Part shown: one piece after another, positions 1 to 61,982 of the stretch
Position numbering within the stretch: position 1 is the first letter of the stretch
Layout: each line of letters opens with the position of its first letter
Origin: Jaapia argillacea MUCL 33604
Lineage: Eukaryota > Basidiomycota > Agaricomycetes > Jaapiales > Jaapiaceae
Assembly: GCA_000697665.1 (NCBI GenBank)
Contig: KL197731.1
Location: 210,563-274,562 of the forward strand
Length of the DNA stretch: 64,000 bases
Direction: 5' to 3'
Translations under genes and position numbers: made by a program
The notes under the pieces: generated by a model
Databases searched by the model: none
The model's input: only the letters and a program-made list of their open reading frames with translations
What the model was told of the DNA's origin: nothing

Positions 1-351
1 ACTTTTGTATCATATGATACATAGAACATTCCTTACTATTCCAGCCCATAGCATTAACGACTCTTCTGACTCAGTCATTGACTCTCTGCCAGTAGCATTA
101 AGATCTCGGTATGACGCCTTATGGTCCCACGGACTATTCTTAGGATAGTCATGTAGTATATAAGCTTGTACCATCTTAATGCAAACGCCAGTCTTGAGCT
201 GGTCTATTCCAAACCAGCCACTCTTGTGTGTCATCGGTCGACCTCATTACTCCTTGTCGCTACTCGCACTCCTCATCCAGCGCTGCTGCCAGTCACATCC
301 CTGGTTGTTGTTTGTTGCTGACACAGTCTCATGCCTCTTCACTTGATACCA

Positions 352-1023
352 CAACTTCTGTCAGTCAGACCACTGATGATGATAATCCGTTGAAGTTATT
401 CAACATCGTAGCGTCCCGCAATAGAGCTTTGACGCAGTTCTTGGAGAGCCCTTCCGGTCCTGACAATTCCAAACGTTGGACCTCCACTTGTATTGGTACG
501 TGTTGATGCTGCAACCGTTTCCCGACTCTTCCGACACTGAGGGTGAGTTCTCCAGTAAACGGTGTTGAACAAGGCAATGGTTCTGCGCAAAATAAACGAG
601 ATGCCAAGTACGCTGCAGCTCGACAAGCAATCCTGAATCTAGGGTGGGATCAGGTTCCGACACGCTCACCACCACCCATGTCGGGCACTGGAAGGAATCA
701 CCTCACTTTCATCAACGAAATTGCTGCGCAACAGGGGTTGCAGGTTGTTTTCCCACCTCCCGTGAATACAGGCCCCCCGAATGATCCACGTTGGGAAGTA
801 GTTTGCTTTGGTATGTCTCCATCTGTACAGATGGCTGTATCACTGAGACTGATCGTAAACGTGCCTTTACCTAGTCAACGGGGTAGAGAAAGGTCGTGGA
901 ACAGGCAAATCAAAGCAGAGCGCTAAGGACGAGGCTGCCAGGGAGGCTTGTCGTACTATGGGTTGGGCGAGTTGTAGGTATTCCCCATCTCTAGTCCCCT
1001 ATGTGTCTCATCAGAGCTTTTAG
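352..1023 (+). CDS. Copy A: dsRBM pair of the kinase-dsRBM family, 5'-truncated or partial
   Basis: Three open exons (about 352-495, 556-810, 875-1023) encode two dsRNA-binding motifs that closely match copies B and C. dsRBM1 runs from LFNIVASRNR to AILNLGW. dsRBM2 runs from FINEIAAQQG to the classic basic end GRGTGKSKQSAKDEAA and ends at GW. Both internal introns are phase 1 and fall at the same place as in the paralogues, and the middle exon is 255 nt in all three copies. No kinase domain lies upstream in the window. Similarity to copy B starts only in the Ser/Pro linker near 300, and the open frame around 228-352 has no ATG start. Either the gene is a decayed remnant or its first exons lie left of the window. 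The frame stays open over the whole dsRBM pair, so loss of function is not certain. Confidence 0.6.
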
Positions 1024-2158
1024 AATCGTGGCGAGAACATCCACCAATGTGTTCTATACATGGACTCCAGGGCATTTACGATTTGCGTCCGTATGGACAT
1101 TGTATCTTGTAACAGTAGTTCACAGAGGACGGGCCAAGCATATTCAAAAAGGGATAATCCGGGGTGGACATACGAGTGCAGCATCAGTATATTTGGTCAC
1201 GCCGGTGGAAGGTAAGGGCTTGGGAGTGGAATACCGACGGTGGGTTCGCCTAAACTGGAAATCACATCTCAGCTTAGTGTTCAATCGTTAGTCCGTTGCT
1301 CAAAGAAATCTCCTCAGGAAACCGCTGAATACCGAGCGTTTGAATCGCCGTTATAGTCATTCACATGTACCGCATATTTGTTGGCGCCCACGAGCCTGGA
1401 GGCGATCCTCCGAAAACCGTTCCACCTCGTCGTCCCATTCCAAACGCTTCAATATTCAGCTGTACTCACCGAAAGTCCAACAGGTCTGCTGTAGCTGCTC
1501 CTCCTATAGTACTTCAACCGCTCCTAGAACAGTATCTCAGGAAAGACCGAAACCGAAGTGCCAGTCGTGCGAGTACTTCGGTGAGTACTTCAAGTTCAAC
1601 CGCAAGAACAGCTTCTTCTTCGGTGCAGACAGGGATAGCGAGGAATCGCGTTGCCATGTCAAGAGGGAAACAACTGGCTTGCCGGATCAGAATTCAGATA
1701 TGGGACGATGAGATATGAATAAGAGAGGAATGAACTCACTATGTATTAATATAGTGTACGGAGGGCAAACCAGTGTGCGAGTACGAGTTCGAGAACCAAA
1801 TGACTGCTTTCAACTTCTAGATATCCTCTCAACCAAGCAGCCAGTGGAAGGAAGGGTAAATTTCCAGGTTCAAAGAAGAGGGTCTAAATCAAGTCGAAAT
1901 CATGGTTTGGACTTCGGTAACGCGGATGCAGGCCCACTCTCAGGCTGGTCCAAGGTTAGTCATTTGTCGATCCCGACCGGTAAGCGCTTACTTGATCAAC
2001 TTTCACTCCCATGATCCCCTCCGAAAAATGGCACGTGACCGCTACGAGTCCGACATGTCTTTTGATCAGTCTTGACGAAACCCCTCATGCACTGGTAAGG
2101 CCGTTCAATAAATTCCCAAAGCCGCATCCGCCTGGATCAAGCTCCCAAAACATCTACC
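1024..2158. other. Duplicated 3' flank of copy A, no recognisable gene
   Basis: Nearly all of this stretch up to about 2070 is similar to 7140-8160 behind copy B, for example the segment around 1380-1450 against 7570-7640 and 1690-1800 against 7850-7950. Reading frames are short and disrupted in both copies. A weak resemblance of 1001-1170 to a dsRBM (an IRAF..VAR helix followed by VVHRGRAK) could be a decayed third motif, but I cannot support it firmly. Confidence 0.5.
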
Positions 2159-4464: not shown

Positions 4465-4574
4465 ATGCCTTTGCATGACGATGACGTACAGGGTAGGCGT
4501 ATCTTCACTCAGAATGGATTGGTCCCGCTGAGACTTGCATTGGTAGCCCTAGATTCCAGTATATTCATTCATTT

Positions 4575-7370
4575 ATGGATTCGAGGGTCCTTGTTGACAC
4601 CTTTTCTCTCTGTTCCTCAAAGGTATTCAAAGGTATGACCTCCAACCGCTTCGTCTTCGTTGGTATTGATTGGTTGTGTAGGTTGTGCGGTATATCTCTT
4701 CTGCTCACGAAATCCGATGAGGCTCGAAGCGTCATTGACAGCTTGGAGTCCACGACGGAGGCTTTGCACCACCTTCTCCTGTACCAGTCGGATGCTGAGG
4801 CTATTAACAAATTGCTCCCCAAATCTGAGGAAGGGTTCCAAGATGTTCTTGACTTCTTAGTCCGAGTGCGTCTTGCTGATGCAATGGATCAAGGCTCTGA
4901 TTAACGGCACATCTCAGGTTCAGCGAGATTGGATATGGAGTAAACTATTGAGCAAAAAGGAGCGGGCTCAGTGCCATCGGTTGCTTGTCGCTTTGTCGCA
5001 GATACGTGACCAAGTACCGCGATCCCTTCTGATCCAAGATGTCGTACCGACGACTACACATATCGGCGGAGGGGGATTTGGCGACGTCTTTGAAGGTTCA
5101 TACAAAAACGAAAAGGTCGCTGTCAAGGTTATCCGCCTTCACCTAGGGCCGGACATCAAGAAGGTGTGATCCCACTGTGCAGGTCAGTTCTGGCTCCTAC
5201 TGATGCGTATTCATAGTTCTTCATGCGCGAGGCCTTGATGTGGTTTGCACTGAACCATGAGCATGTTGTTCCATTGATTGGCATTGTCCCGAAGTATGAT
5301 GCGGGTCCGAGTCCACGCTCGGCTTTGGTATCCCCATTGTACCAGAATGGCAACTTACTCGACTACGTCAAAAAGAAACACCCGACCATCGACCATCTCG
5401 ATAGCCTGGTATGTGCTCCGCTCTACACTCATCCCACCCACTTCATTGAGATACCACGGATAGCTTGGTGACGTGGCTAGAGGTTTGGAATATGTCCATG
5501 AACGAGGAATCGTGCATGGCGATCTTCGAGCTGTACGTCCAGTTTTCCTTGTCGAGAAATGTAACTCCTTGTGTTAAGGGATGTGATCCATAAGGTTAAC
5601 GTTCTCGTCGACGACGCAAAACGAGCTCAGATCTCCGACTTCGGATTAGCGTACCTTTTTGAAATGACTCAAAGCACCAATGTTCGCGGCAATCTGTTGT
5701 GGATGGCCCCTGAACTGCATGCACCTTCTTCCTCTAAAGACGACAGGACTCCAGCTCAAGACGTCTATTCCTTTGGCATGGTTTGCATTGAGGCACGTCC
5801 CTCGCTGTCCCTCGCTTGGATACATCTACCATAGAGAGCACAAACTAACGGGCTCCCCTTAGGTGTACACGGGTAAAGCTCCTTATGGGAATCTTAATCA
5901 TGCAGCAGCATTAGCATGCATTCGAGATTTTATGTCTCCCCCCCGACCCGCGAATCCATCAGGGGAATGTTTGATGTCAGATCAGCTCTGGAATGTTGCC
6001 CAGATGTGCTGGAAGCCCAGTCCTAAAGATCGCCCCACTATACGGAAGGTTATTGAACTACTCCCTCGGTGCCACCCGCCTGCGCCTCTGGACGATACAT
6101 CTCCGTCGAGGTCTGCGACGTTGCGGCCTGCTGACGTTCAAAGCCAGGGTGGTCAACCCACTACCCTGGATGTTGGTTCCTCATCTCTTGGAATGTCTGC
6201 CGAGTTTTTGGCGGAAAGTCCCACGAACATGAAAACGCCCGTGTTACCCTCAAACCAAGTCTCACCACCCGCAGATCCCACCTTGCCACACACCCACAGT
6301 TCTTCGATTCCGTCGCCCTTGGAGGCAACAGATCAAAGTCCCGCTCAACCCGTCGACAACATGACGCCACCCATCCAAACGGAACTACCCTCGTCTCACC
6401 CATCCGGCTCAGACCCTCCACTAGTTCAGGAACCCTCCTCTCCTAGAAGCCAGGGACAGTGGTCACCCCAGCAGACCTCCCTCCCTCATACGTCTTCCAG
6501 CTATCCTCACGCCTCTTCATTTGGCCCCACAACTTCTGCTAGTCAGACCAGTGATAATGATAATCCGTTGGAATTATTCAACATCTTGGCGTCCCGTAAT
6601 AGAGCTGTGACGCAGTTCTCGGAGAGCTCTTCAGGTCCTGACAATTCCAAACGCTGGTCCTTCACTTGTATTGGTACGTGATGATGCTGCAACCGTTTCC
6701 CGACTCTTCCGACACTGAGGATGAGTTCCCCAGTAAACGGTGTTGAGCAAGGCAATGGCTGCGCGCACAATAAGCGAGAAGCCGAGTACGCTGCGGCTCG
6801 ACAAGCAATCCACAACCTGGGGTGGGATCAGGTTCAGACAAGCTCACCGCCACCCATGTCGGGCACTGGAAAAAATCACCTTGCTTTCTTCAACGAAATT
6901 GCCACACAACGGAGGTTGCAAGTCGTTTTCCCACCTCCCGTGAACACAGGCTCCCAGCATGTTCCACGTTGGGAAGTAGTATGCATTGGTATGTCCATCT
7001 GTACAGATGTCTGTATTACTGAGACTTATGGTAGATGTGCCTTTGCCTAGTCGACGGGGTAGAGAAGGGTCGTGGAACGGGCAAGTCAAAGCAGAGCGCT
7101 AAGGACGAGGCTGCCAGGGAGGCTTGTCGTAATATGGGTTGGACGAGTTGTAGGTATTCTCCATCTCTAGTCCCATATATGTCTGATCAGAGCTATCAGA
7201 ATCGCGGCGAGAATATCCATCAATGTATGTTTTGTATACATGGACTTCAGGGCATTTGCGTCCCTATGGGCATTGTATCCTGTACTAGTAGTTCACGGAG
7301 GACGGGGCAAGCATATTCAAAGAGGGATTATCTCTTGCTGGGCATACAAGTGCAGCAACAGCATATTTGA
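4575..7370 (+). CDS. Copy B: TKL-type protein kinase with C-terminal tandem dsRNA-binding motifs
   Basis: Eight exons (4575-4865, 4918-5163, 5217-5408, 5464-5532, 5595-5792, 5863-6673, 6734-6988, 7051-7370) give 793 aa. An N-terminal helical region is followed by a full kinase: glycine loop GGGGFGDV, lysine in VAVKVI, catalytic loop HGDLRAVN, DFG, APE and DVYSFGMVCIE. A Pro/Ser-rich linker of about 150 residues then leads to two dsRBMs; dsRBM2 has the canonical GTGKSKQSAKDEAA. Oddities: the homologue of copy C's first exon (4465-4492) opens into a stop at 4595-4597, so a start at ATG 4575, with the next intron retained, is my fallback. The intron at 5793 begins with GC instead of GT. The C-terminus continues about 75 residues past dsRBM2, where copy C stops. 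Kinase and dsRBM calls are secure; the ends are not. Confidence 0.75.
5793..5862 (+). other. GC-AG intron in copy B kinase
   Basis: The exon ends in the IEV block of kinase subdomain IX. It joins a donor reading GCACGT, where copy C has GTGCGT at the homologous position (10327). The acceptor TTAG lies at 5859-5862. Either this is a tolerated GC donor or a disabling mutation. Confidence 0.6.
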
Positions 7371-8269
7371 TCACATCGGTGGAAGGTAAAGGCTTGGGAA
7401 TGGACTACCGATGGCGATGGAAGTGGTTCGCTTAAGCTGGACGTCTCATCTCAACTTATGGTTCAATAGGTAGTCCGGTGCTCCAATAAACCTCCTCGGG
7501 TGACTGCTGAGTGCAGAGTGTTTGAATCGCCATTATAGTCATTTATATGTACGATATTTGTTGATGCCCTCGAGCCTCGAGGTGATCCTCCGAAAACCGT
7601 TCTACCTCGTCGTCCCGTTCCAAGCACATCAGTGTTCGGCTGTGCTCACCGGACGCCCAGTAGGTATTCTGTAGCTACTCCTCCCACGACTGTATCTCAG
7701 GGGCGACCAAGACCAAGCTGAGGTACCGGTCGTGTGAGGACATCGGTGAGGCCTTCAACAGCAAGAGCAGCTTCCTCTGCGGAGCAGATTGTGATAGAGA
7801 GGAATCGTGTTGTCATGGATGTCGAGAGAGAACAACGGGATTTCCAGATCAGATATGGGGACGATGAGATATAAATGTAAGAGGAGTGAACTCACCAGAC
7901 GTGATCGTGTGTGGAGGGCAAACCAGAGGGCAAACACGAGTTCAAGAGTCAAATGACAGCCATGGTTTTTTCACCAGACAACTGGTAGAAGGATGAGTAA
8001 CTTTCCGGGTTCAAGGGGCTCGAAATGATCGTTTAGTAATGCGGATCATGATGCAGGACCAGGATGGTCAAGTGTCGATCCCGACTTCACAAGCGCTCGC
8101 TTGTTCTTCACTCCCATGATCCCCTCCCGAAAACGGCACGCGACCAGGCGCGACCGCTACGAGTCCAACTTGATCCTTGAAGGGACGGCAATCTTGGTTA
8201 TGCATCACATTTGCTAGGGACAATCAACTTCTCCCATGATCGGTGCGTAGTACGAGCCCCGCAAGGCGA
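7371..8269. other. Duplicated 3' flank of copy B, no gene seen
   Basis: Matches 1024-2070 over most of its length. The frames are short and interrupted. It belongs to the tandem duplication unit and I do not recognise a product. Confidence 0.5.
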
Positions 8270-9024: not shown

Positions 9025-11578
9025 ATGTCCTTGCGTAACGACGACACCCAGGGTAAGCGCTTATCCCATAGCTGATCACCTTGGTTGAGACGTATGTCGA
9101 TAGTCCTCGATTCCAGTATGTTCATTTGTTCGGAGCGTTGAGGCCGCCTCGTTGAAACTTTTTTGTTCCCTTTCCCGAGGTATCGACATGTAAAGAAATC
9201 TATGCTCCTCGACTTAGTGGTTGTGACTGATTGTCGCAGGTTGTGGGCTACATCACAGTTACTTGTGAAATCCCAAGAGGCTCTTAGCATTATTTCCACC
9301 ATACAGTCCACGACGGAGGCATTACGGAACATTCTGCTGCATCAATCGGAGCCTGAGGCTATCAATGCGTTGATTCCTGAATCCAAGGAGGGGCTTCAAG
9401 ACGTTCTTGACTTCTTAGTTCACGTACGTCCTGCATAGGTGTGGTTTAAGGTGGAGGTTCACGTCGTATCAGGTTCAGCGAGATTGGCTCTGGATCAACC
9501 TGCTGAGAAGCGAGGAGCGGACTCAGTGCCGTCGCCTGCTCGTCACTCTATCGAATAAGAGCGATCAGCTGCCGCATTCTCTTCTCGTTGAAGGAGTGGG
9601 ACCGAAAGGTGCCCACATTGGTGGAGGTGGCTACGGAGATGTCTGGGCAAGTTCATATCGAAACCAAAAGGTCGCTGTCAAGGTTTTGCGCTTTAATCTA
9701 GATGTAGGGAACATCAAGAAGGTTGATTTTGCAGCGCCATTTCCCTCTGATGTTTGTTCACCCATCTTCACAGTTATTTCGGCGTGAGGCCCTGATGTGG
9801 TTTGCGCTGAGCCACGAAAATGTCGTGCCTTTGATCGGTCTTGTGATGAACTTCGAGGGCCCACACCCAGCTTTGATATCCCCGTACTTGGAAAACGGTA
9901 ACTTGTTAGCCTATGTAAACAACAATCACCTCTCCGTGGATCGCGTCAATAGCCTGGTTCGCACATCACTTCACATCGGTCTTCACTTGATTAAGGTCCT
10001 ACTTTAGCTTCGTGATGTGGCTGCGGGATTAGAATATGTCCACGAGCGGCAAATCGTCCACGGTGATCTTCGAGCTGTAAGTCTATTCTTTGTACTCATC
10101 TCCAGGTATTGAACAATTACTTCACAAGGTCAATGTTCTCGTGGATGGTGAAGACCGAGCTCGCCTCTCCGACTTCGGATTGGCTTACATCGGGGATATG
10201 ACGCGAAGCTCAGCCGTTCGGGGGAATTGGCTTTGGATAGCTCCCGAACTTCATGATCCTTCTGCTACTATATATGAAAGGACTTCGGCTCAAGATGTTT
10301 ATTCCTTTGGCATGGTTTGTATCGAGGTGCGTCGCCGTAGTTAGTTCTCCCAATGAGGCGGCGGGCTGACGGTCTTATCATAGGTGTACACCGGCGAAGC
10401 TCCATACGCGGGCGTTCCGGAACCTGCTGCATTTTCGCGCATCCGACAGGGTGTCACACCCGACAGACCAACAAGCCACACTGGTGGCAGGGCGATGTCG
10501 AATGAACTCTGGAGGGTTGTCCAGTTGTGCTGGACCTTTCGTCCTAATGATCGACCGAGTATCTGCAGAGTTCTTGAAGAACTGCGAAAATGCCCGTCGG
10601 AGGAAGTTCAAGGTGATTCAACCATGTCCAGATCGGCCACCCTACGTCCTCTTACTCGAATCCAAAATACACCACTCGCTACGCAAGCCAATTCCTTGCC
10701 ATTTCGCCAAGGTTCCGCCGAGGTCCTGACAGAAAGTCCTACGTGGATAACGAGTACGAGAACGTTCCCTCCTTCCGCTCAAAGTGTAAGGTTAGATCAA
10801 CTATTCGGCACATCAGCACCCCAACCCGGCCCATCCTCGACGCCCAGTAACCAACCACGCCAGGTTCCTCGCCAGGTGTCACTACCTCCCCCCTACCAGA
10901 CTGTTATGACTCCTCCGGTTCATCAGTACAGAGTGCCATCTTCTCCGCCTTCCGGTGGCCCTTGTGCGGTTCCTCCTGTCTCCTCAACTACCAGCAGCAA
11001 TGCCCTATCGGAATTCAACCGACTTGCGGCTCAACATAAAGTCAAGGCAGTGTTCAAAGACAGTTCTACGGGTCCTGGCCATCAGCTACATTGGACAGTC
11101 AGATGTTTTGGTAGGTGACACTTCCATGAATCCGTTGGTGTTGCTGAACATGAATCAAACAGTGAACGGAGTTGAGCGAGGGAGCGGGAGTGCAGACAAC
11201 AAACGAGAAGCTAGCGAAACTGCGGCTGCAAAAGCCATGGTTAACCTGGGGTGGGGCGGAGGACAGAGTAGCTCCTCATCAACGTTGACGGCGATGAGTG
11301 GAAAGGCTGCCATTAAAATTTTTAACGAGAGGGTAGGACAACCGGGTGTATCTGGAGATTTCGCATTCGAGCAGTCAGGCCCCCCTCACCTTCCAGTCTG
11401 GCAAGCACGTTGTATAGGTATGTCGCCAAATCGTTGCTTGGATAGCTGTGAATCTGATGGACTGCGCGATTACTTAGTCAATGGCGTGACTAAAGGCCAC
11501 GGACGAGCGGTTTCAAAGCAGTTGGCGAAAGAGGAAGCTGCCAAAGAAGCTTGTCGTGCAATGGGTTGGGCGAATTGA
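9025..11578 (+). CDS. Copy C: intact protein kinase with two C-terminal dsRBMs (PKR-like parts in reversed order)
   Basis: Ten exons (9025-9052, 9117-9189, 9240-9423, 9473-9721, 9774-9956, 10008-10076, 10129-10326, 10384-11110, 11163-11417, 11478-11578) sum to 2067 nt, 688 aa, with no frame break. A helical N-terminus (about 1-135) of the basidiomycete TKL style precedes the kinase: GGGGYG 145-150, K165, HGDLRAVN 257-264, DFG 277-279, APE and SAQDVYSFG. A low-complexity Pro/Ser linker spans about 410-530. dsRBM1 (about 534-603) shows an ALSEFNRLAAQHK helix, TGPGH, WTVRC and VNGVERGSG. dsRBM2 (about 619-686) ends SKQLAKEEAAKEAC..MGW. All catalytic residues are present, with Arg for Lys in HGDLR. 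The family composition implies a dsRNA-regulated Ser/Thr or dual-specificity kinase; ligand and substrate are inference. Confidence 0.88.
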
Positions 11579-54952: not shown

Positions 54953-57085
54953 CTTAGAACCCTTTCAACAGCTTCACGAAGAAGGGGAGAAGAAGTAAGG
55001 GGGAAGGGAGGACACGGCGAAATCCCGTTCCCCCGCTCCTTTATGTTTTGTTTTTTTCTGCGGGAAGGTGGGACGGTAGGCGGGCCGCCCGGTTGATAGA
55101 AGTCTGCCATAAGGGACGGTGGAAGTGTCATGTGCGAAGGAGGGTTAACCTATTGAACCCCAGACTCGAAGCCACCCACACACGCTTCGAGTCTGGGGTG
55201 GGGATAGAATCGATAGAAGGAGAGCTATTCTTGGGAATGGTTAACGTTGTGGATACGTTGACCGGATCAGGAACGTGGAATGGTTATGGATATCGAGTCG
55301 TGTGATTGGAGGTTGGGTGGGAGCTTTCGGTTCCGCGTATGCCGAAAAATCGAGAGGAATGGCAACGGGAGAGGGTTGGTGTTGGTGCAAAGGGTGAGGT
55401 TGGGCAGATACGATAGAGCGGAACTGCTGGCCGTACATCCGGATCATGCTCCACAATTCTCAGTGTTCGGCCTTGTGGGGTGGAATTCCCAAGCTTCGAA
55501 GCGATGATCGCGGGTGGGGGTGGGTCAATCATAGGCATCAAAAGTTGAATGCATCTTCGAGGATAGAACCCGTCGAACAAAGCCAACGCCCAGGAGCTCG
55601 ACACCACATCGGTCGCGAGCGATACTAGTATGCATAGGACGCAGGAATGAACACCCAAGGAGAAAGCTTGAGCTAACGCAGTCCACTGCACCAGGGGACG
55701 ACAAAGCCGGCTCCTGGAGGAAAGTTAAGATTTGGATGACTCGCCGAGGAAGAATTTCGGGGCATCAAGCTGCATCAAGAGCCAGGCCGAGGGCGGCAAG
55801 CGCGTGTCGGACAACCAGCACACCCAACTTGAATTGAACTTGAAGATAAACAACGACAAGGTCCGAATGTGAGTCATGTTGCAAAGATGACCCCTCATTG
55901 CATGATATCCAAGGTTCCTGGATCGCGATACCTGAGCACGAGCTAGAGTTTCGTCCAAGACTTGTTCTGCACGTCCGTCGTTGAGCTCAGTCAGAGACGT
56001 GGCGACCACGTTCAGGTCCTCCCACGTGGCAACTCTTGCACCGAAATATTCCCGCGCCGTATCATGAAACGTATTCCTCAAATCCTTCGTCTCCGCTTGA
56101 TTCTATTGCCCTCCGCACGGAACTCCTGCCAGCTGGGTGTTGTTTCACCCTTCAATTCTACCTGGGCAGATCTACACGATCCTGGACGTCGACGGTTGAA
56201 ACCAAAATACTTACACCAAAGGCAGTCGAGAGGTATACGCGACCACCGGCACCCTGCGACCATCGGTAACGCGGTGTGGCACAGATTCATTATCGCACCT
56301 CCATCCAAGAGGCACGGCGATTGCTATCTTGCCTCACCAACTTCTTCACGACTATTATTGACCAAGAAGACTTGGTCGTGCCTCAGCCCTTACATCGAGG
56401 ATTCCATCATCCCACCCTGACTCTATCAAGGTCTTGTACGAGAACGTGATGAACCTACCTTATCGCGAAGCATCGATGTATCACTTGACATCCCTCGGGT
56501 GCTTCTATGTTGACCGAAGGTGGAGTTACCTACCCCCCTTATGATTCACGAAATGTTGCTTTAACGCCGCATGGATCCAACGATCATCTCAAATCATCTC
56601 TGGATGGACATCTACCATCTCTCCCTGTGATCCACTGCTGTATCTGCTACATTCAGCCTGGTAGCCAAAGCGGCAGTCATTTCCTTGCGCAGAATTCGAA
56701 TTCGCCATTTGTATATTCCGTCTCTTTGTGGGGCCGACACACTGCATTCATATCAGGGTACAAGGCACGTATGCGGGTTCAAAACACAGCTTCTGCCTTG
56801 TCTATACCTCGAATCGGTTTATCATCGCTCGATATCGTGTTCATGCATACTCTTGCCTCGAGGCCATGCAGTGAAAGCAGCGCACTTGTGGGTCTTTGTG
56901 GGTGGACTTTACGGCGTCTTCGAGCGTCTCTGGCAAAACACGCGGATGGAACGATGGCGTAAGGCGCCTCTACAAATTCGGAGCACAGCCTCTGCCTTGT
57001 TCATAACTCGGATCGTTGTTCCATTCTTGAAACCATCAATCTACAGGATTATCCCCACCTCTCCTCTCACCCTGAGATCCTCATC
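54953..57085. other. Interval with a hairpin and part of the exonuclease duplication
   Basis: No supported gene. A minus-strand frame starting MRNTFHDTAREYFGARVATW (56081 downwards) is helix-like but isolated. From about 56590 the sequence is the upstream part of a duplicated unit repeated from about 58210. Confidence 0.45.
55157..55199. repeat. Perfect inverted repeat, 16-bp arms with 11-nt loop
   Basis: Left arm 55157-55172 (ACCCCAGACTCGAAGC) is exactly complementary to the right arm 55184-55199 (GCTTCGAGTCTGGGGT). It lies about 200 bp upstream of the sugar porter start codon. Confidence 0.9.
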
Positions 57086-57688
57086 ATGAACCCCACCTCC
57101 GTGTCTTACACACTCTGCGATACTGGGGTTGCAGTTGAGCAAGCCGTCTCCCACCTGATGGCCTCTCCCTTCGTACTCTTAGACTGCGAAGGGAGAGATC
57201 TAGGAAAACGGGGAGGCGCCTTGAGTCTCATCTGCATAGGGACGAGCAAAGCCGAGACGATCTACGTCTTTGACGTCCCCACACTATCGCAAAGTGGTAG
57301 CTCCATCGCAACGCTCTTCGAATTATTGAGGAGCAAGGAAGTGAAGAAAGTCATGTGGGATGGACGCATGGATTTCGTTTCGATTTTGGATACCTTTGGT
57401 GTTGGTATCGAGAATGTGGTGGATTTGCAAGTGGCTGAAGTCGTTTCGAGGGGTGTTATTAGAGGGGAAGGAGAGAAACAACGTTTGAGGCATCTTCATA
57501 CGAAACCAGAGGACTTGGTACATGTGTGTGCTGGGTGTCGATGTAGGTTGGCGGTGGATGTTTTCGTTAATAGAACGAGACGGTTTGGAGAGAGTAGGAG
57601 GGTGCAGAGGTTGTCGAGGTGTAGGGTTTGTAATCTTATGGCTGGTAAGAAAGGTCTCAAGCCCGATGTGGATTGGGTGGATGTTTGA
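57086..57688 (+). CDS. Duplicated 3'-5' exonuclease, copy 1 with internal deletion (motif III lost)
   Basis: A single open frame of 200 aa from MNPTSVSYTL. It has the first two motifs of a DEDD-type 3'-5' exonuclease (RNase D/WRN-like): FVLLDCEGRDLG with the D-x-E pair, and VKKVMWDGRMDF. After KQRLR it jumps directly to HLHTKPEDLVHVC, where copy 2 has about 125 further residues and an intron. The lost part includes the third catalytic motif (LLRYAATDIYLL). The frame is kept across the deletion, so a protein may still be made, but it should be inactive as a nuclease. The C-terminal cysteine cluster (VCAGCRCR..SRCRVC), perhaps zinc-binding, remains. Confidence 0.75.
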   Translation: MNPTSVSYTLCDTGVAVEQAVSHLMASPFVLLDCEGRDLGKRGGALSLICIGTSKAETIYVFDVPTLSQSGSSIATLFELLRSKEVKKVMWDGRMDFVSILDTFGVGIENVVDLQVAEVVSRGVIRGEGEKQRLRHLHTKPEDLVHVCAGCRCRLAVDVFVNRTRRFGESRRVQRLSRCRVCNLMAGKKGLKPDVDWVDV

Positions 57689-58823
57689 GTGCTCGCGATG
57701 GGCCCTTGAAGGTAAGTAGTTACCAGTGTTTGTATTTCTTGGTCAGATGATAATCGCAATTCTCAGGTCTTTGCTTGAAATGTGTGTACAGTAGCTCCTT
57801 GTTCCCTCCATCGATATCCACTTCACCTGTTCCGTCTGTAGCATACTGTATCTTATTCTTGATATCCGTGTGTTTCCGTTCTGCGGTCATGAGATCACGA
57901 CTTGTAATTCCCACTCCTCTACATCTTTGATTTCGTGCATCCCTTCATGGCGACCAATAGTCCAGCCCAAGACAACTCGATTTATCCTTGAAATATGTAG
58001 CCCAGCTTGAAGTTACAAGTAAAGACCTGGATCTACATCAGAGAGTCGGGGGTACACGGGTCCCGAAACCCGAAGGCATATCACTACGTACCATCGATGA
58101 TTCGATAGTAGTCGCCACATCTCTCCTCTCCTCCTTACCTCCATAACCTCAACGATCACCCCAACCCTTTCGAAAACAAGATGACTCGTCAATTCTTCTA
58201 TCTCAATTCATCTGTGGATCGCCACCTACCACATCTCCCTATGACCCATTGCTGTATCTGTCGCCCATTCGGTCTGGTAGCCAAAGAGGCAGTTACCCCC
58301 TGCTTGGAAGTCGAATCTACCATTTGTATATTCCACTGACTTATGGCGCCAAACCACCGCATTCATATCGGGGTATAGGGCGCCTCCGCGGGTTCAGAAC
58401 AGAGCTTCTGTCTTGTCCATACTCATCCCATCCCAAAATCTCTGGATCATATGCGCTCTATTGAGCAAGCTGTTTCCTATCTGATTGCCTCAAGGCAGTT
58501 CGCTTCCTACGAAGAGCTCGCCATTTGATATTCCAACTACTAGGGGGGCCAACCATCGCGCTCATACATACTCTCGCCTCGTGGCCATGCAGTGAAAGCA
58601 GCACACTCCGAGTCGTGGGTCCTTGTGGGTGGACTTTTTACGGCGTCTTCGAGCGTCTCTGGTACACAGCAATCAAAACACGCGGATGCGACGATGGAGG
58701 AAGGCACCTCTGTAAAATCAGAGCACAGCCTCTGCCTTGTTCATAACTCGGATCGTTTTTCCATTCTTGAAACCATCAATCCGAACAATTGTCCCCCTCT
58801 TCTCCCACTCTGAAATCTCCATC
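57689..58823. other. Duplicated spacer between exonuclease copies
   Basis: 57689-58197 matches 59888-60400 and includes a captured TPI promoter (own entry). From about 58210 it matches the upstream flank of copy 1 (from about 56590). The unit boundary lies near 58197. Confidence 0.7.
57950..58197 (+). pseudogene. Relic of the TPI promoter and first six codons
   Basis: The sequence follows 60125-60400 closely, including ACCTGGATCTAC, GAGTCGGGGGTACACGGG, TCCCGAAACCCGAA and CGAAAACAAG before an ATG at 58181. The codons read MTRQFF, as in the real TPI, then diverge at 58198-58200. This is the 3' edge of a tandem duplication whose breakpoint fell inside TPI codons 6-7. Confidence 0.85.
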
Positions 58824-59887
58824 ATGAACACCACCTCCGTGTCATACACACTCTACGATACTGGCGTTGCCGTTGAGCAAGCTGTCACTCATCTGATGGC
58901 CTCTCCCTTCGTACTCTTAGATTGCGAAGGGAGAGATCTAGGAACATCGGGTGGCGCTTTGAGTCTCATCTGCATCGGGACGAGCAAAGCCGAGACGATC
59001 TACCTCTTTGACGTCCCCACACTCTCACAGGGTGGTGCCTCCATCACACCCCTCTTCGAGTTGCTGAGGAGCAAGGAAGTAAAGAAAGTCATGTGGGATG
59101 GACGAATGGATTTCATTGCGATTTTGGATGCCTTTGGTGTTGGTATCGAGAATGTAGTCGATTTGCAGGTGGCTGAAGTCGTTTCGAGGGGTATTGTGAG
59201 AGGGGAAGAAGAGAAACAACGTTTACGACGACTTGCATCCAATTTTTTTGGTTTTCAGGCAGTGAAAGTTGATCCGAAGAGGTTTGAAGGGATTCATCTT
59301 GCTATTGGGATGCAAAAGTGTTTGGACCAGAATAAACTTGGAGGTGGGATTGAGAAAGATCGTACGTTCGCCTCTGTCGATTCATTGCGCCTGGCAGCTG
59401 TAGATCCTGACTTGACATCTTTTTATCAGCGGAAGTCACCGCTATGCACAAGGCGAACAAAACGGGTGTATGGATGGACCGTCCTCTCTCTCATCAACTC
59501 CTCCGATACGCCGCGACGGACATCTACCTACTCTCTATCCTGCACGAATCCTTTACCGAGAAAGGATGGCTCTTCCCTGCAGTGATTGATACCATCTCTT
59601 CTCAATCTCAATGCTACATTTCGATGTTCCAAGGTGTTGACGTTGTGGAAGATGGGGTCTTTCGTCCGGGGCCGCTGATCAACCTGAGGCATCTTCATAC
59701 GAAACCAGAGGACTTGGTACATGTATGTGCTGGGTGTCGATGTAGGTTGGCGGTGGATGTTTTCGTGACTAGAACGAGACGGTTTGGAGAGAGTAGGAGG
59801 GTGCAAAGGTTGTCGAGGTGTAGAGTTTGTAATCTTATGGCTGGTAAGAAAGGTCTGAATCCCGATGTGGATTGGGTGGATGTTTGA
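58824..59887 (+). CDS. 3'-5' exonuclease (RNase D/WRN-like) with C-terminal cysteine motif, copy 2
   Basis: Two exons (58824-59361 and 59430-59887) give 332 codons, 331 aa. The DEDD exonuclease fold is complete: motif I FVLLDCEGRDLG (D and E about residues 32-34), motif II KKVMWDGRMDF, and motif III LSHQLLRYAATDIYLL with the last aspartate after the tyrosine. A C-terminal segment with VCAGCRCR and SRCRVC could bind zinc. The family removes nucleotides from RNA or DNA 3' ends with two metal ions; the substrate here is unknown. This copy is the complete one of a tandem pair. It sits about 0.5 kb upstream of TPI. Confidence 0.85.
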
Positions 59888-60382: not shown

Positions 60383-61450
<1,068 letters not shown>

Positions 61451-61982
61451 GGGTGAGGGGAATTGTGCGGAGAGAATTGCCATGGAAAAGAAGTTGTTGT
61501 ATCGTTTAAATTGGCAGTGGTCAATATAGATGTAGGTTATTATTTGTGACTTGAGAAGTTGAAGACAATCAGTGTGGACCCAAGTACTCAGTGTCCAGTT
61601 CCAAGAGGTTTGAGGAGGTTTTCCAGTCATCATCTTCAGTGAGGGGCGTTACGTGTGGCTGCGTTAACGACGCGATCGCACCTGTTTCAAATCGACAAGT
61701 ATCGTGCGGGTGGTAGTCGAGGCGACATGATCGCATTCCCCCGACTTTTGCGCACGTCCACATGAGAAACGCCACGGGCCGCGAGTCATTTTGGACCTTT
61801 CTCGTCAGGGTCCTTACGCGCCTGTTTGGTGGACTTCGCTCAATTGGAAGCCAAAGAGCCGATGGACCTACGTGTGTTGCACGGCTTTCTGCCTGCGCTT
61901 TCGCGGTCCCGATCTTCCTTGACTAGTATTTAGCGAGCACTGAGTGGTCTCTTCAAGACGTCGTTGGCCCCTTTCCACAGCG
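61451..61982. other. TPI terminator and ABC transporter promoter
   Basis: Short intergenic spacer; no specific element identified. Confidence 0.5.

Follow-up and report, generated by a model that had tools for sequence, protein, structure and literature searches.

Gene structure at the locus

The window, a stretch of 64,000 nucleotides from the fungus Jaapia argillacea, holds on its forward strand a ten-exon gene (gene C, 9025..11578) predicted to encode a 667-aa protein in which a kinase domain is followed by two tandem double-stranded RNA-binding motifs (dsRBMs). The gene was defined by a spliced model, realignment, Pfam profiles and dN/dS against a neighbouring copy, gene B. Exons 1-3 (9025..9423; 9025-9052, 9180-9189 and 9240-9423) cover the N-terminal region (aa 1-74) and have the same structure in gene B. 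Based upon the kinase profile match and a table of kinase motifs, exons 4-7 (9473..10326; 9473-9721, 9774-9956, 10008-10076 and 10129-10326) encode the kinase N-lobe, the HGDLRAVNVL catalytic loop and the DFG, APE and YSFG motifs. Exon 8 (10384..11110), within a stop-free frame at 10384-11118, carries the kinase C-lobe, a Pro/Ser-rich linker of ~130 residues and the first half of dsRBM1. Exon 9 (11163..11417) contains the second half of dsRBM1 and the first half of dsRBM2, as placed by the model and by the Pfam dsrm match on the spliced protein, and exon 10 (11478..11578) completes dsRBM2 and ends in the stop codon. Each dsRBM is split by one intron.

Intron boundaries in genes C and B were placed manually. 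A spliced aligner with the gene C model as query returned identical exons, which shows that the model is consistent but does not prove it independently. All nine introns of gene C fall at matching places in gene B, itself modelled on gene C, and the ten-exon layout of an earlier reading made from the sequence alone is retained in the present model. The 10-base micro-exon (9180-9189) is the least certain part, and copy B gives the same reading there (M..DD..QGI..L). Two splice sites are odd: the seventh intron of gene B starts with GC and the fourth of gene C with the unusual GTTGAT.

Two further copies lie upstream on the same strand. Gene B (4465..7148), identified by Pfam and spliced alignment, has the same kinase and tandem dsRBM build (kinase E 3.9e-47; dsrm E 2e-20, 73.5 bits vs 23, in two stretches); its coordinates stop at the last dsRBM residues (MGWTS), and the frame stays open on to 7370. 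Copy A (342..971; exons 342-495, 556-810 and 875-971) matches Pfam dsrm with E 9.7e-22 and 77.8 bits vs a cut-off of 23. The 10 kb upstream of the window consist of N (L005 is all N), and copy A is known from its dsRBM tail alone. Direct repeats (D1-D3, D7, D8, D10 and D11) pair positions 328..1504 with 6506-7684 as one A/B block, for which no strand is assigned, with an identity of 80-94% and extending ~0.5 kb past the coding end into the 3' flank. Judged from these repeats, the block appears to be a fairly recent tandem duplication.

Elsewhere in the window, two tandem near-copies (56963-57688 and 58716-59585) look by eye like 3'-5' exonucleases (LLDCEGRDLG...), and a stretch at 60834-61529 looks by eye like a triosephosphate isomerase.

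Domain assignment in gene C

The kinase domain was recovered with PF07714 (aa 121-374, E 3.7e-45, 154.7 bits vs a cut-off of 23.1) and the tail with PF00035 (E 1.6e-14, 54.7 bits vs a cut-off of 23), the latter in two stretches that each pass alone. The sequence-only reading had proposed a catalytically complete kinase followed by two dsRBMs and had named profile searches as the check on the latter; with the catalytic motifs intact and both dsRBMs significant, this description holds. Its figures needed correction, from 688 to 667 aa and, for the dsRBMs, from residues 534-603 and 619-686 to approximately aa 513-580 and 597-665, as located from an alignment with copies A and B.

Other collections gave compatible matches. 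Positions 155-216 of NCBIfam TIGR02191, the dsRBM part of RNase III, aligned to aa 516-575 (E 6.9e-8, 32.3 bits, far under the whole-protein cut-off of 166). The NCBIfam kinase matches were all under their own cut-offs and mean "protein kinase" only. When the tail was compared to the PDB using phmmer, matches included ADAR1 (4.5e-10), ADAR2 (8.9e-5), TRBP (5.6e-4) and PKR (2.7e-3, 1qu6). When the genome was searched with PF00035 one exon at a time, four matches were returned, none of them in the window, because an intron cuts each dsRBM of gene C; it takes the spliced model, or a query from the family, to reveal these dsRBMs.

Genome-wide census of kinase and dsRBM genes

The census covered the genome from which the window comes, 43.7 Mb in 95 contigs. 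By spliced alignment, contig C17 holds four more kinase and dsRBM genes, K1-K4, at 709-733k. Profile tests were made on K1 (kinase 1.6e-38; dsrm 2.3e-14 in two stretches) and K4 (kinase 1.1e-36; dsrm 1e-10 in one stretch, dsRBM1 having no Pfam stretch of its own); the builds of K2 and K3 are based on the spliced alignment. The first dsRBM is divergent in K2-K4, and the second dsRBM of K3 was not seen in the readable stretch.

A genome search with the dsRBM pair of gene C gave 26 matches at E<=1, and one with its kinase gave at least 134 exon matches (104 of 507 candidates scored). Twelve of the 26 dsRBM matches, all on contigs C23 and C17, have a kinase match no more than 4.2 kb away; the other 14 are more than 700 kb from any kinase match among the at least 134 found. 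With genes C and B and K1-K4, the genome carries at least six kinase and dsRBM genes at two unlinked places, a family and not an isolated case. Scanning viral_contigs with the kinase part of gene B returned no relative.

Several of the introns within dsRBMs are open in frame. Retention of the 60-base intron in dsRBM2 of gene C (11418-11477) would lengthen the beta2-beta3 loop by 20 aa; the introns in dsRBM1 of K2 and in both dsRBMs of K4 likewise have no in-frame stop, and their retention would extend this loop, not truncate the protein. AlphaFold models with introns read through had a mean pLDDT of 58 for dsRBM2 of gene C, folded from an alignment with single rows of K4 and C1, and of 41.8 for the K4 pair, too low to weigh for or against an alpha-beta-beta-beta-alpha fold. 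The low-confidence gene C model gave 119 PDB matches at E<=10 in Foldseek, 0 of them at E<=0.001; the top two were dsRBDs (E 0.22-0.25).

The kinase-dsRBM joint

The gene C frame at 10384-11118 starts in the kinase C-lobe (VYTGEAPYAG, later CW..RP), runs through the linker and ends in the middle of dsRBM1. A gene B frame (5863-6681) likewise carries the kinase end and the dsRBM start, as do single frames on C17 in K1 (711713-712591), K2 (716481-717785) and K4 (730654-732138), the last of which spans both dsRBMs. As the kinase and the dsRBM start share one open frame, the joint is independent of predicted introns, and the fusion is real at the DNA level. The possibility raised earlier that kinase and dsRBM exons might never be joined appears largely answered by the single-frame joints in five genes.

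Selection was estimated as dN/dS by the Nei-Gojobori method. Between genes B and C the ratio was 0.28 overall (N-terminus 0.28, kinase 0.24, dsRBM1 0.35, dsRBM2 0.36; linker saturated), between K2 and K4 0.27 (519 codons) and between the A and B dsRBMs 0.31 (154 codons). Both domains are conserved at the protein level. An explanation by chance neighbours, pseudogenes or a splicing artefact could appeal to the hand-set introns of C and B, to gene models known from DNA alone and to the silent exon-wise dsrm search, but the joint within one frame in five genes, the matching B and C introns and dN/dS well under 1 leave it scarcely credible.

Kinase type and catalytic motifs

Gene C has a Gly-rich loop, VAVK, HGDLRAVN, DFGL and APE, with HGD in place of HRD in the catalytic loop and an activation loop reading DMTRSSAVRG. 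The Lys, the catalytic Asp and Asn, DFG and APE are kept in all six dsRBM kinases. The kinases sampled come from 30 loci out of the 134 exon matches. Gly replaces the HRD Arg in 16 of 18 other sampled kinases as well (L041 and L061 read HRD), and four of these 18 (L042, L050, L051 and L053) lack, in their automatic models, either the catalytic-loop Asp or the DFG Asp. For L051 and L057 the motif script marks no Lys; the rows show AVK, and no losses were counted.

Against the PDB, the kinase of gene C had 254 matches at E<=1e-20, and the best 60 of these were tyrosine kinases (EGFR, LCK, CSK, HCK, ABL and others), MLK4 and CTR1. By eye, DLRAVN of genes B and C is close to the tyrosine-kinase motif DL(R/A)A(A/R)N, the FslK Pro at position 4 of GXR(L/M) is present in 6/6 dsRBM kinases (DRP, PRP, NRP, ERP) and the motif 2 Pro is absent. 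FslK are described in the main text of Zhao et al. 2014 (PMC3937382) as a fungi-specific lineage that is expanded in Agaricomycetes and lacks tyrosine-kinase residues. The dsRBM kinases would fit this mushroom tyrosine-kinase-like or FslK type and not the type of PKR. The earlier assignment to the TKL style, outside the eIF2alpha group, agrees with the best 60 of the 254 PDB matches, as far as such matches indicate kinase group. Since the kinase is not of the eIF2alpha group, any likeness to PKR would be convergent, as had been anticipated.

This bears on whether the protein could be a functional PKR that phosphorylates eIF2alpha and halts translation upon dsRNA. The same two domain types are present, but the kinase falls on the TK/TKL side, with no eIF2alpha kinase among the best 60 of 254 PDB matches. 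The genome also has matches to HGTP_anticodon2 (GCN2-type) at two loci, and passages of a 2025 review (PMC12394161) describe PKR as vertebrate-specific and GCN2 as the only eIF2alpha-type kinase conserved in fungi. Such a role is very improbable.

Fusion history

In a first kinase tree (23 rows; L050 dropped from 24) the dsRBM label needed 3 changes and K1 was unresolved. A 17-row set was then obtained by removing seven of the 24 rows (long, outlying or L050). With this set, the six dsRBM kinases as one clade were rejected (AU p 0.013), and neither B+C+K1 (AU p 0.10) nor K1-K4 (p 0.16) was. Rooted on L049, the dsRBM kinases formed a grade, for which two gains, or one gain with one loss, take equally few changes. 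A dsRBM tree of 20 rows over 68 columns, built without the third C6 gene and the dsRBMs of L002, L003, L004 and L023, was poorly resolved with long branches, and the kinase-linked dsRBMs as one clade had an AU p of 0.016. Given the ambiguity of both trees, no firm claim is made for independent fusions. Whether fused once or repeatedly, the kinase-dsRBM association has persisted through duplication at two unlinked places.

dsRBM sequences and kinase-free relatives

The pattern common to 20 dsRBMs of the genome is approximately FN...GPPH..W...C.VNG...G.G...KQ.AK..AA..A...MGW. Both dsRBMs of gene C keep the loop-2 His (GPGH, GPPH) and a basic start of helix 2 (KREAS, KQLAK), and those of K1 read GPPH twice, with KQGAK and KQAAK. 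Among 13 kinase-linked dsRBMs, a count that includes copy A with its dsRBM tail alone, the loop-2 His is kept in eight (both of C, both of K1, dsRBM2 of B, and dsRBM1 of K2, K3 and K4) and absent in five (dsRBM1 of A and B, and dsRBM2 of A, K2 and K4).

Kinase-free dsRBM genes are present as RNase III-like genes at C1:895k and C2:1008k and as paired dsRBMs alone on C6. The C1 gene passes PF00636 (E 1.6e-6, 29.2 bits vs 27), and the C2 gene scores 26.2 bits with PF14622, under the cut-off of 35. The C2 stretch (1007.5-1009.2 kb; L018, L015 and L016) holds an RNase III-like part and two dsRBMs, and by eye the catalytic acids seem to be missing. To judge from its sequence, the gene may be an inactivated RNase III that now serves as an RNA-binding protein. 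On C6 (480.9-496.1 kb; L019, L030, L014 and neighbours) there are three kinase-free copies of a two-dsRBM gene, one of which was examined with Pfam, and each copy is followed by an acetyltransferase-like frame (GNAT, by eye).

Across the 20 dsRBMs compared, those of the C2 and C6 genes are the nearest kinase-free relatives. The C2 dsRBMs are 56% identical to both K1 dsRBMs, 54% to dsRBM2 of B and 49% to dsRBM2 of K4; those of C6 are 52% identical to dsRBM2 and 43% to dsRBM1 of C. Because of this closeness and the RNase III-like stretches in the C2 and C1 genes, it is plausible that the dsRBM pair derived from an RNase III-like source.

The dsRBMs could on this evidence be an address label that brings a constitutively active kinase to RNA-silencing bodies or structured RNPs, the RNA being no switch. 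Occurrence of the same dsRBM type on the RNase III-like proteins and alone in the C6 pairs would suit this, as would the position of the C2 dsRBMs as closest kinase-free relatives of K1 and of dsRBM2 of B, but tandem dsRBMs on a flexible linker are just as compatible with a switch that works by allostery or proximity, and we consider the address label rather unlikely. Some Dicer-partner dsRBMs are protein-protein modules, and the dsRBMs could similarly have become docking modules that join the kinase to RNase III, to Dicer or to stand-alone dsRBM proteins. The five dsRBMs without the loop-2 His point that way, and kinase-free two-dsRBM genes exist as possible partners; against it, the RNA-contact signature is kept in both dsRBMs of C and of K1, making this pairing role improbable.

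Proposed function

The reading that we favour is that these are RNA-duplex-responsive signalling kinases of the fungal lineage concerned, clustered and activated by dsRNA through their dsRBMs, and we regard its prospects as even. Since dsRBMs recognise the A-form helix, binding shape and not sequence, several kinase molecules could load on one duplex once their C-terminal dsRBMs engage dsRNA or an RNA with strong folding. The long flexible linker would let neighbouring kinase domains meet, trans-autophosphorylation would follow in the activation loop (in gene C, DMTRSSAVRG), and downstream proteins would then be phosphorylated on Ser/Thr. Candidate natural RNAs would be mycovirus, transposon or sense-antisense transcripts. 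PKR works by dsRNA-driven dimerisation and autophosphorylation, according to passages of the same review (PMC12394161). This proximity principle could also work in the reversed domain order by way of the ~130-residue linker. Repeated duplication together with partial dsRBM decay suggests a fast-changing sensor family.

Several observations favour duplex-responsive kinases. The kinase and dsRBM profiles are far above cut-off in C and B, and the build is repeated in C17. Motifs are complete in 6/6 dsRBM kinases vs Asp losses in four of 18 others, RNA-contact residues are kept in C and K1, and dN/dS is 0.24-0.36. Close to half of the dsRBM matches (12/26) sit beside kinases, and the genome has matches for the RdRP, Argonaute and Dicer families, so that cellular duplex RNA is to be expected. 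The RdRP (PF05183) matches lie on seven contigs (C2, C5, C6, C15, C19, C24 and C53), some in frames with stops, and appear to represent a large repertoire of cellular RNA-dependent RNA polymerases.

Other observations count against this reading. Contact residues are uneven, with the loop-2 His missing in 5/13; dsRBM1 of K2-K4 is divergent, and a second dsRBM of K3 was not seen in its readable stretch. The catalytic loop is of the non-RD kind, and non-RD kinases are often not switched through activation-loop phosphorylation; Gly for the HRD Arg is general here (16/18 others). Repeated duplication together with partial dsRBM decay suggests a fast-changing sensor family.

Fungi carry many dsRNA viruses, and the antiviral defence described in them is RNA interference; we know of no described PKR-like RNA-sensing kinase in fungi. 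It is a tentative idea, which we lean against at present, that mushroom-forming fungi evolved, perhaps repeatedly, their own PKR, a multi-copy set of dsRNA-switched kinases forming an antiviral or anti-transposon signalling arm beside RNA interference. A fungal kinase with a dsRNA-binding tail would turn the question "do fungi signal on dsRNA?" into one testable with a single recombinant protein. If true, it would be a clean case of an immune sensor convergently assembled from unrelated parts.

Comparison with known systems

No description of a fungal kinase with dsRBMs was found in the literature searched, the longest result lists being covered at their top. In a 2010 survey of the kinases of fungi and the domains they carry (PMC2838846), the terms "dsRNA", "double-stranded" and "RNA binding" do not appear in the main text. 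Further domains occur in 16 of 241 FslK and are named in Table S3 only, according to the main text of Zhao et al. 2014 (PMC3937382). The earlier remark that no fungal kinase of this build had been described fits the literature covered by these lists and main texts, and the build is provisionally taken as undescribed.

Like gene C, PKR (EIF2AK2) combines a kinase and two dsRBMs in one protein, and in the PDB the gene C tail also matches the dsRBD of PKR (1qu6, E 0.0027). Gene C differs in its reversed order (kinase aa 121-374 before dsRBMs at ~aa 513-665), which had been recognised as PKR parts in reverse, in its kinase group, in being fungal and in being multi-copy. PKZ is a Z-DNA-binding eIF2alpha kinase whose domain order and kinase group differ from those of gene C. 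In fish, PKZ likewise pairs a kinase with a nucleic-acid-binding domain, but the domains are Zalpha and the kinase is PKR-like (PMC4027156).

The dsRBM kinases appear to share with FslK, as these are described in the main text (PMC3937382), a near-tyrosine-kinase domain without all TK motifs, the subdomain X Pro and many paralogues; as a further likeness, several of the paralogues sampled resemble one another by eye in how many kinase introns they have and how these are spaced. Most FslK have no further domain, whereas tandem dsRBMs are attached here. Within the genome itself, the RNase III-like gene at C1:895k has the same dsRBM type as the kinase genes, and the one at C2:1008k shares with them the dsRBM type, the presence of two dsRBMs, the position of an intron and a linker rich in Pro; both differ from the kinase genes in carrying a nuclease-like part in place of the kinase.
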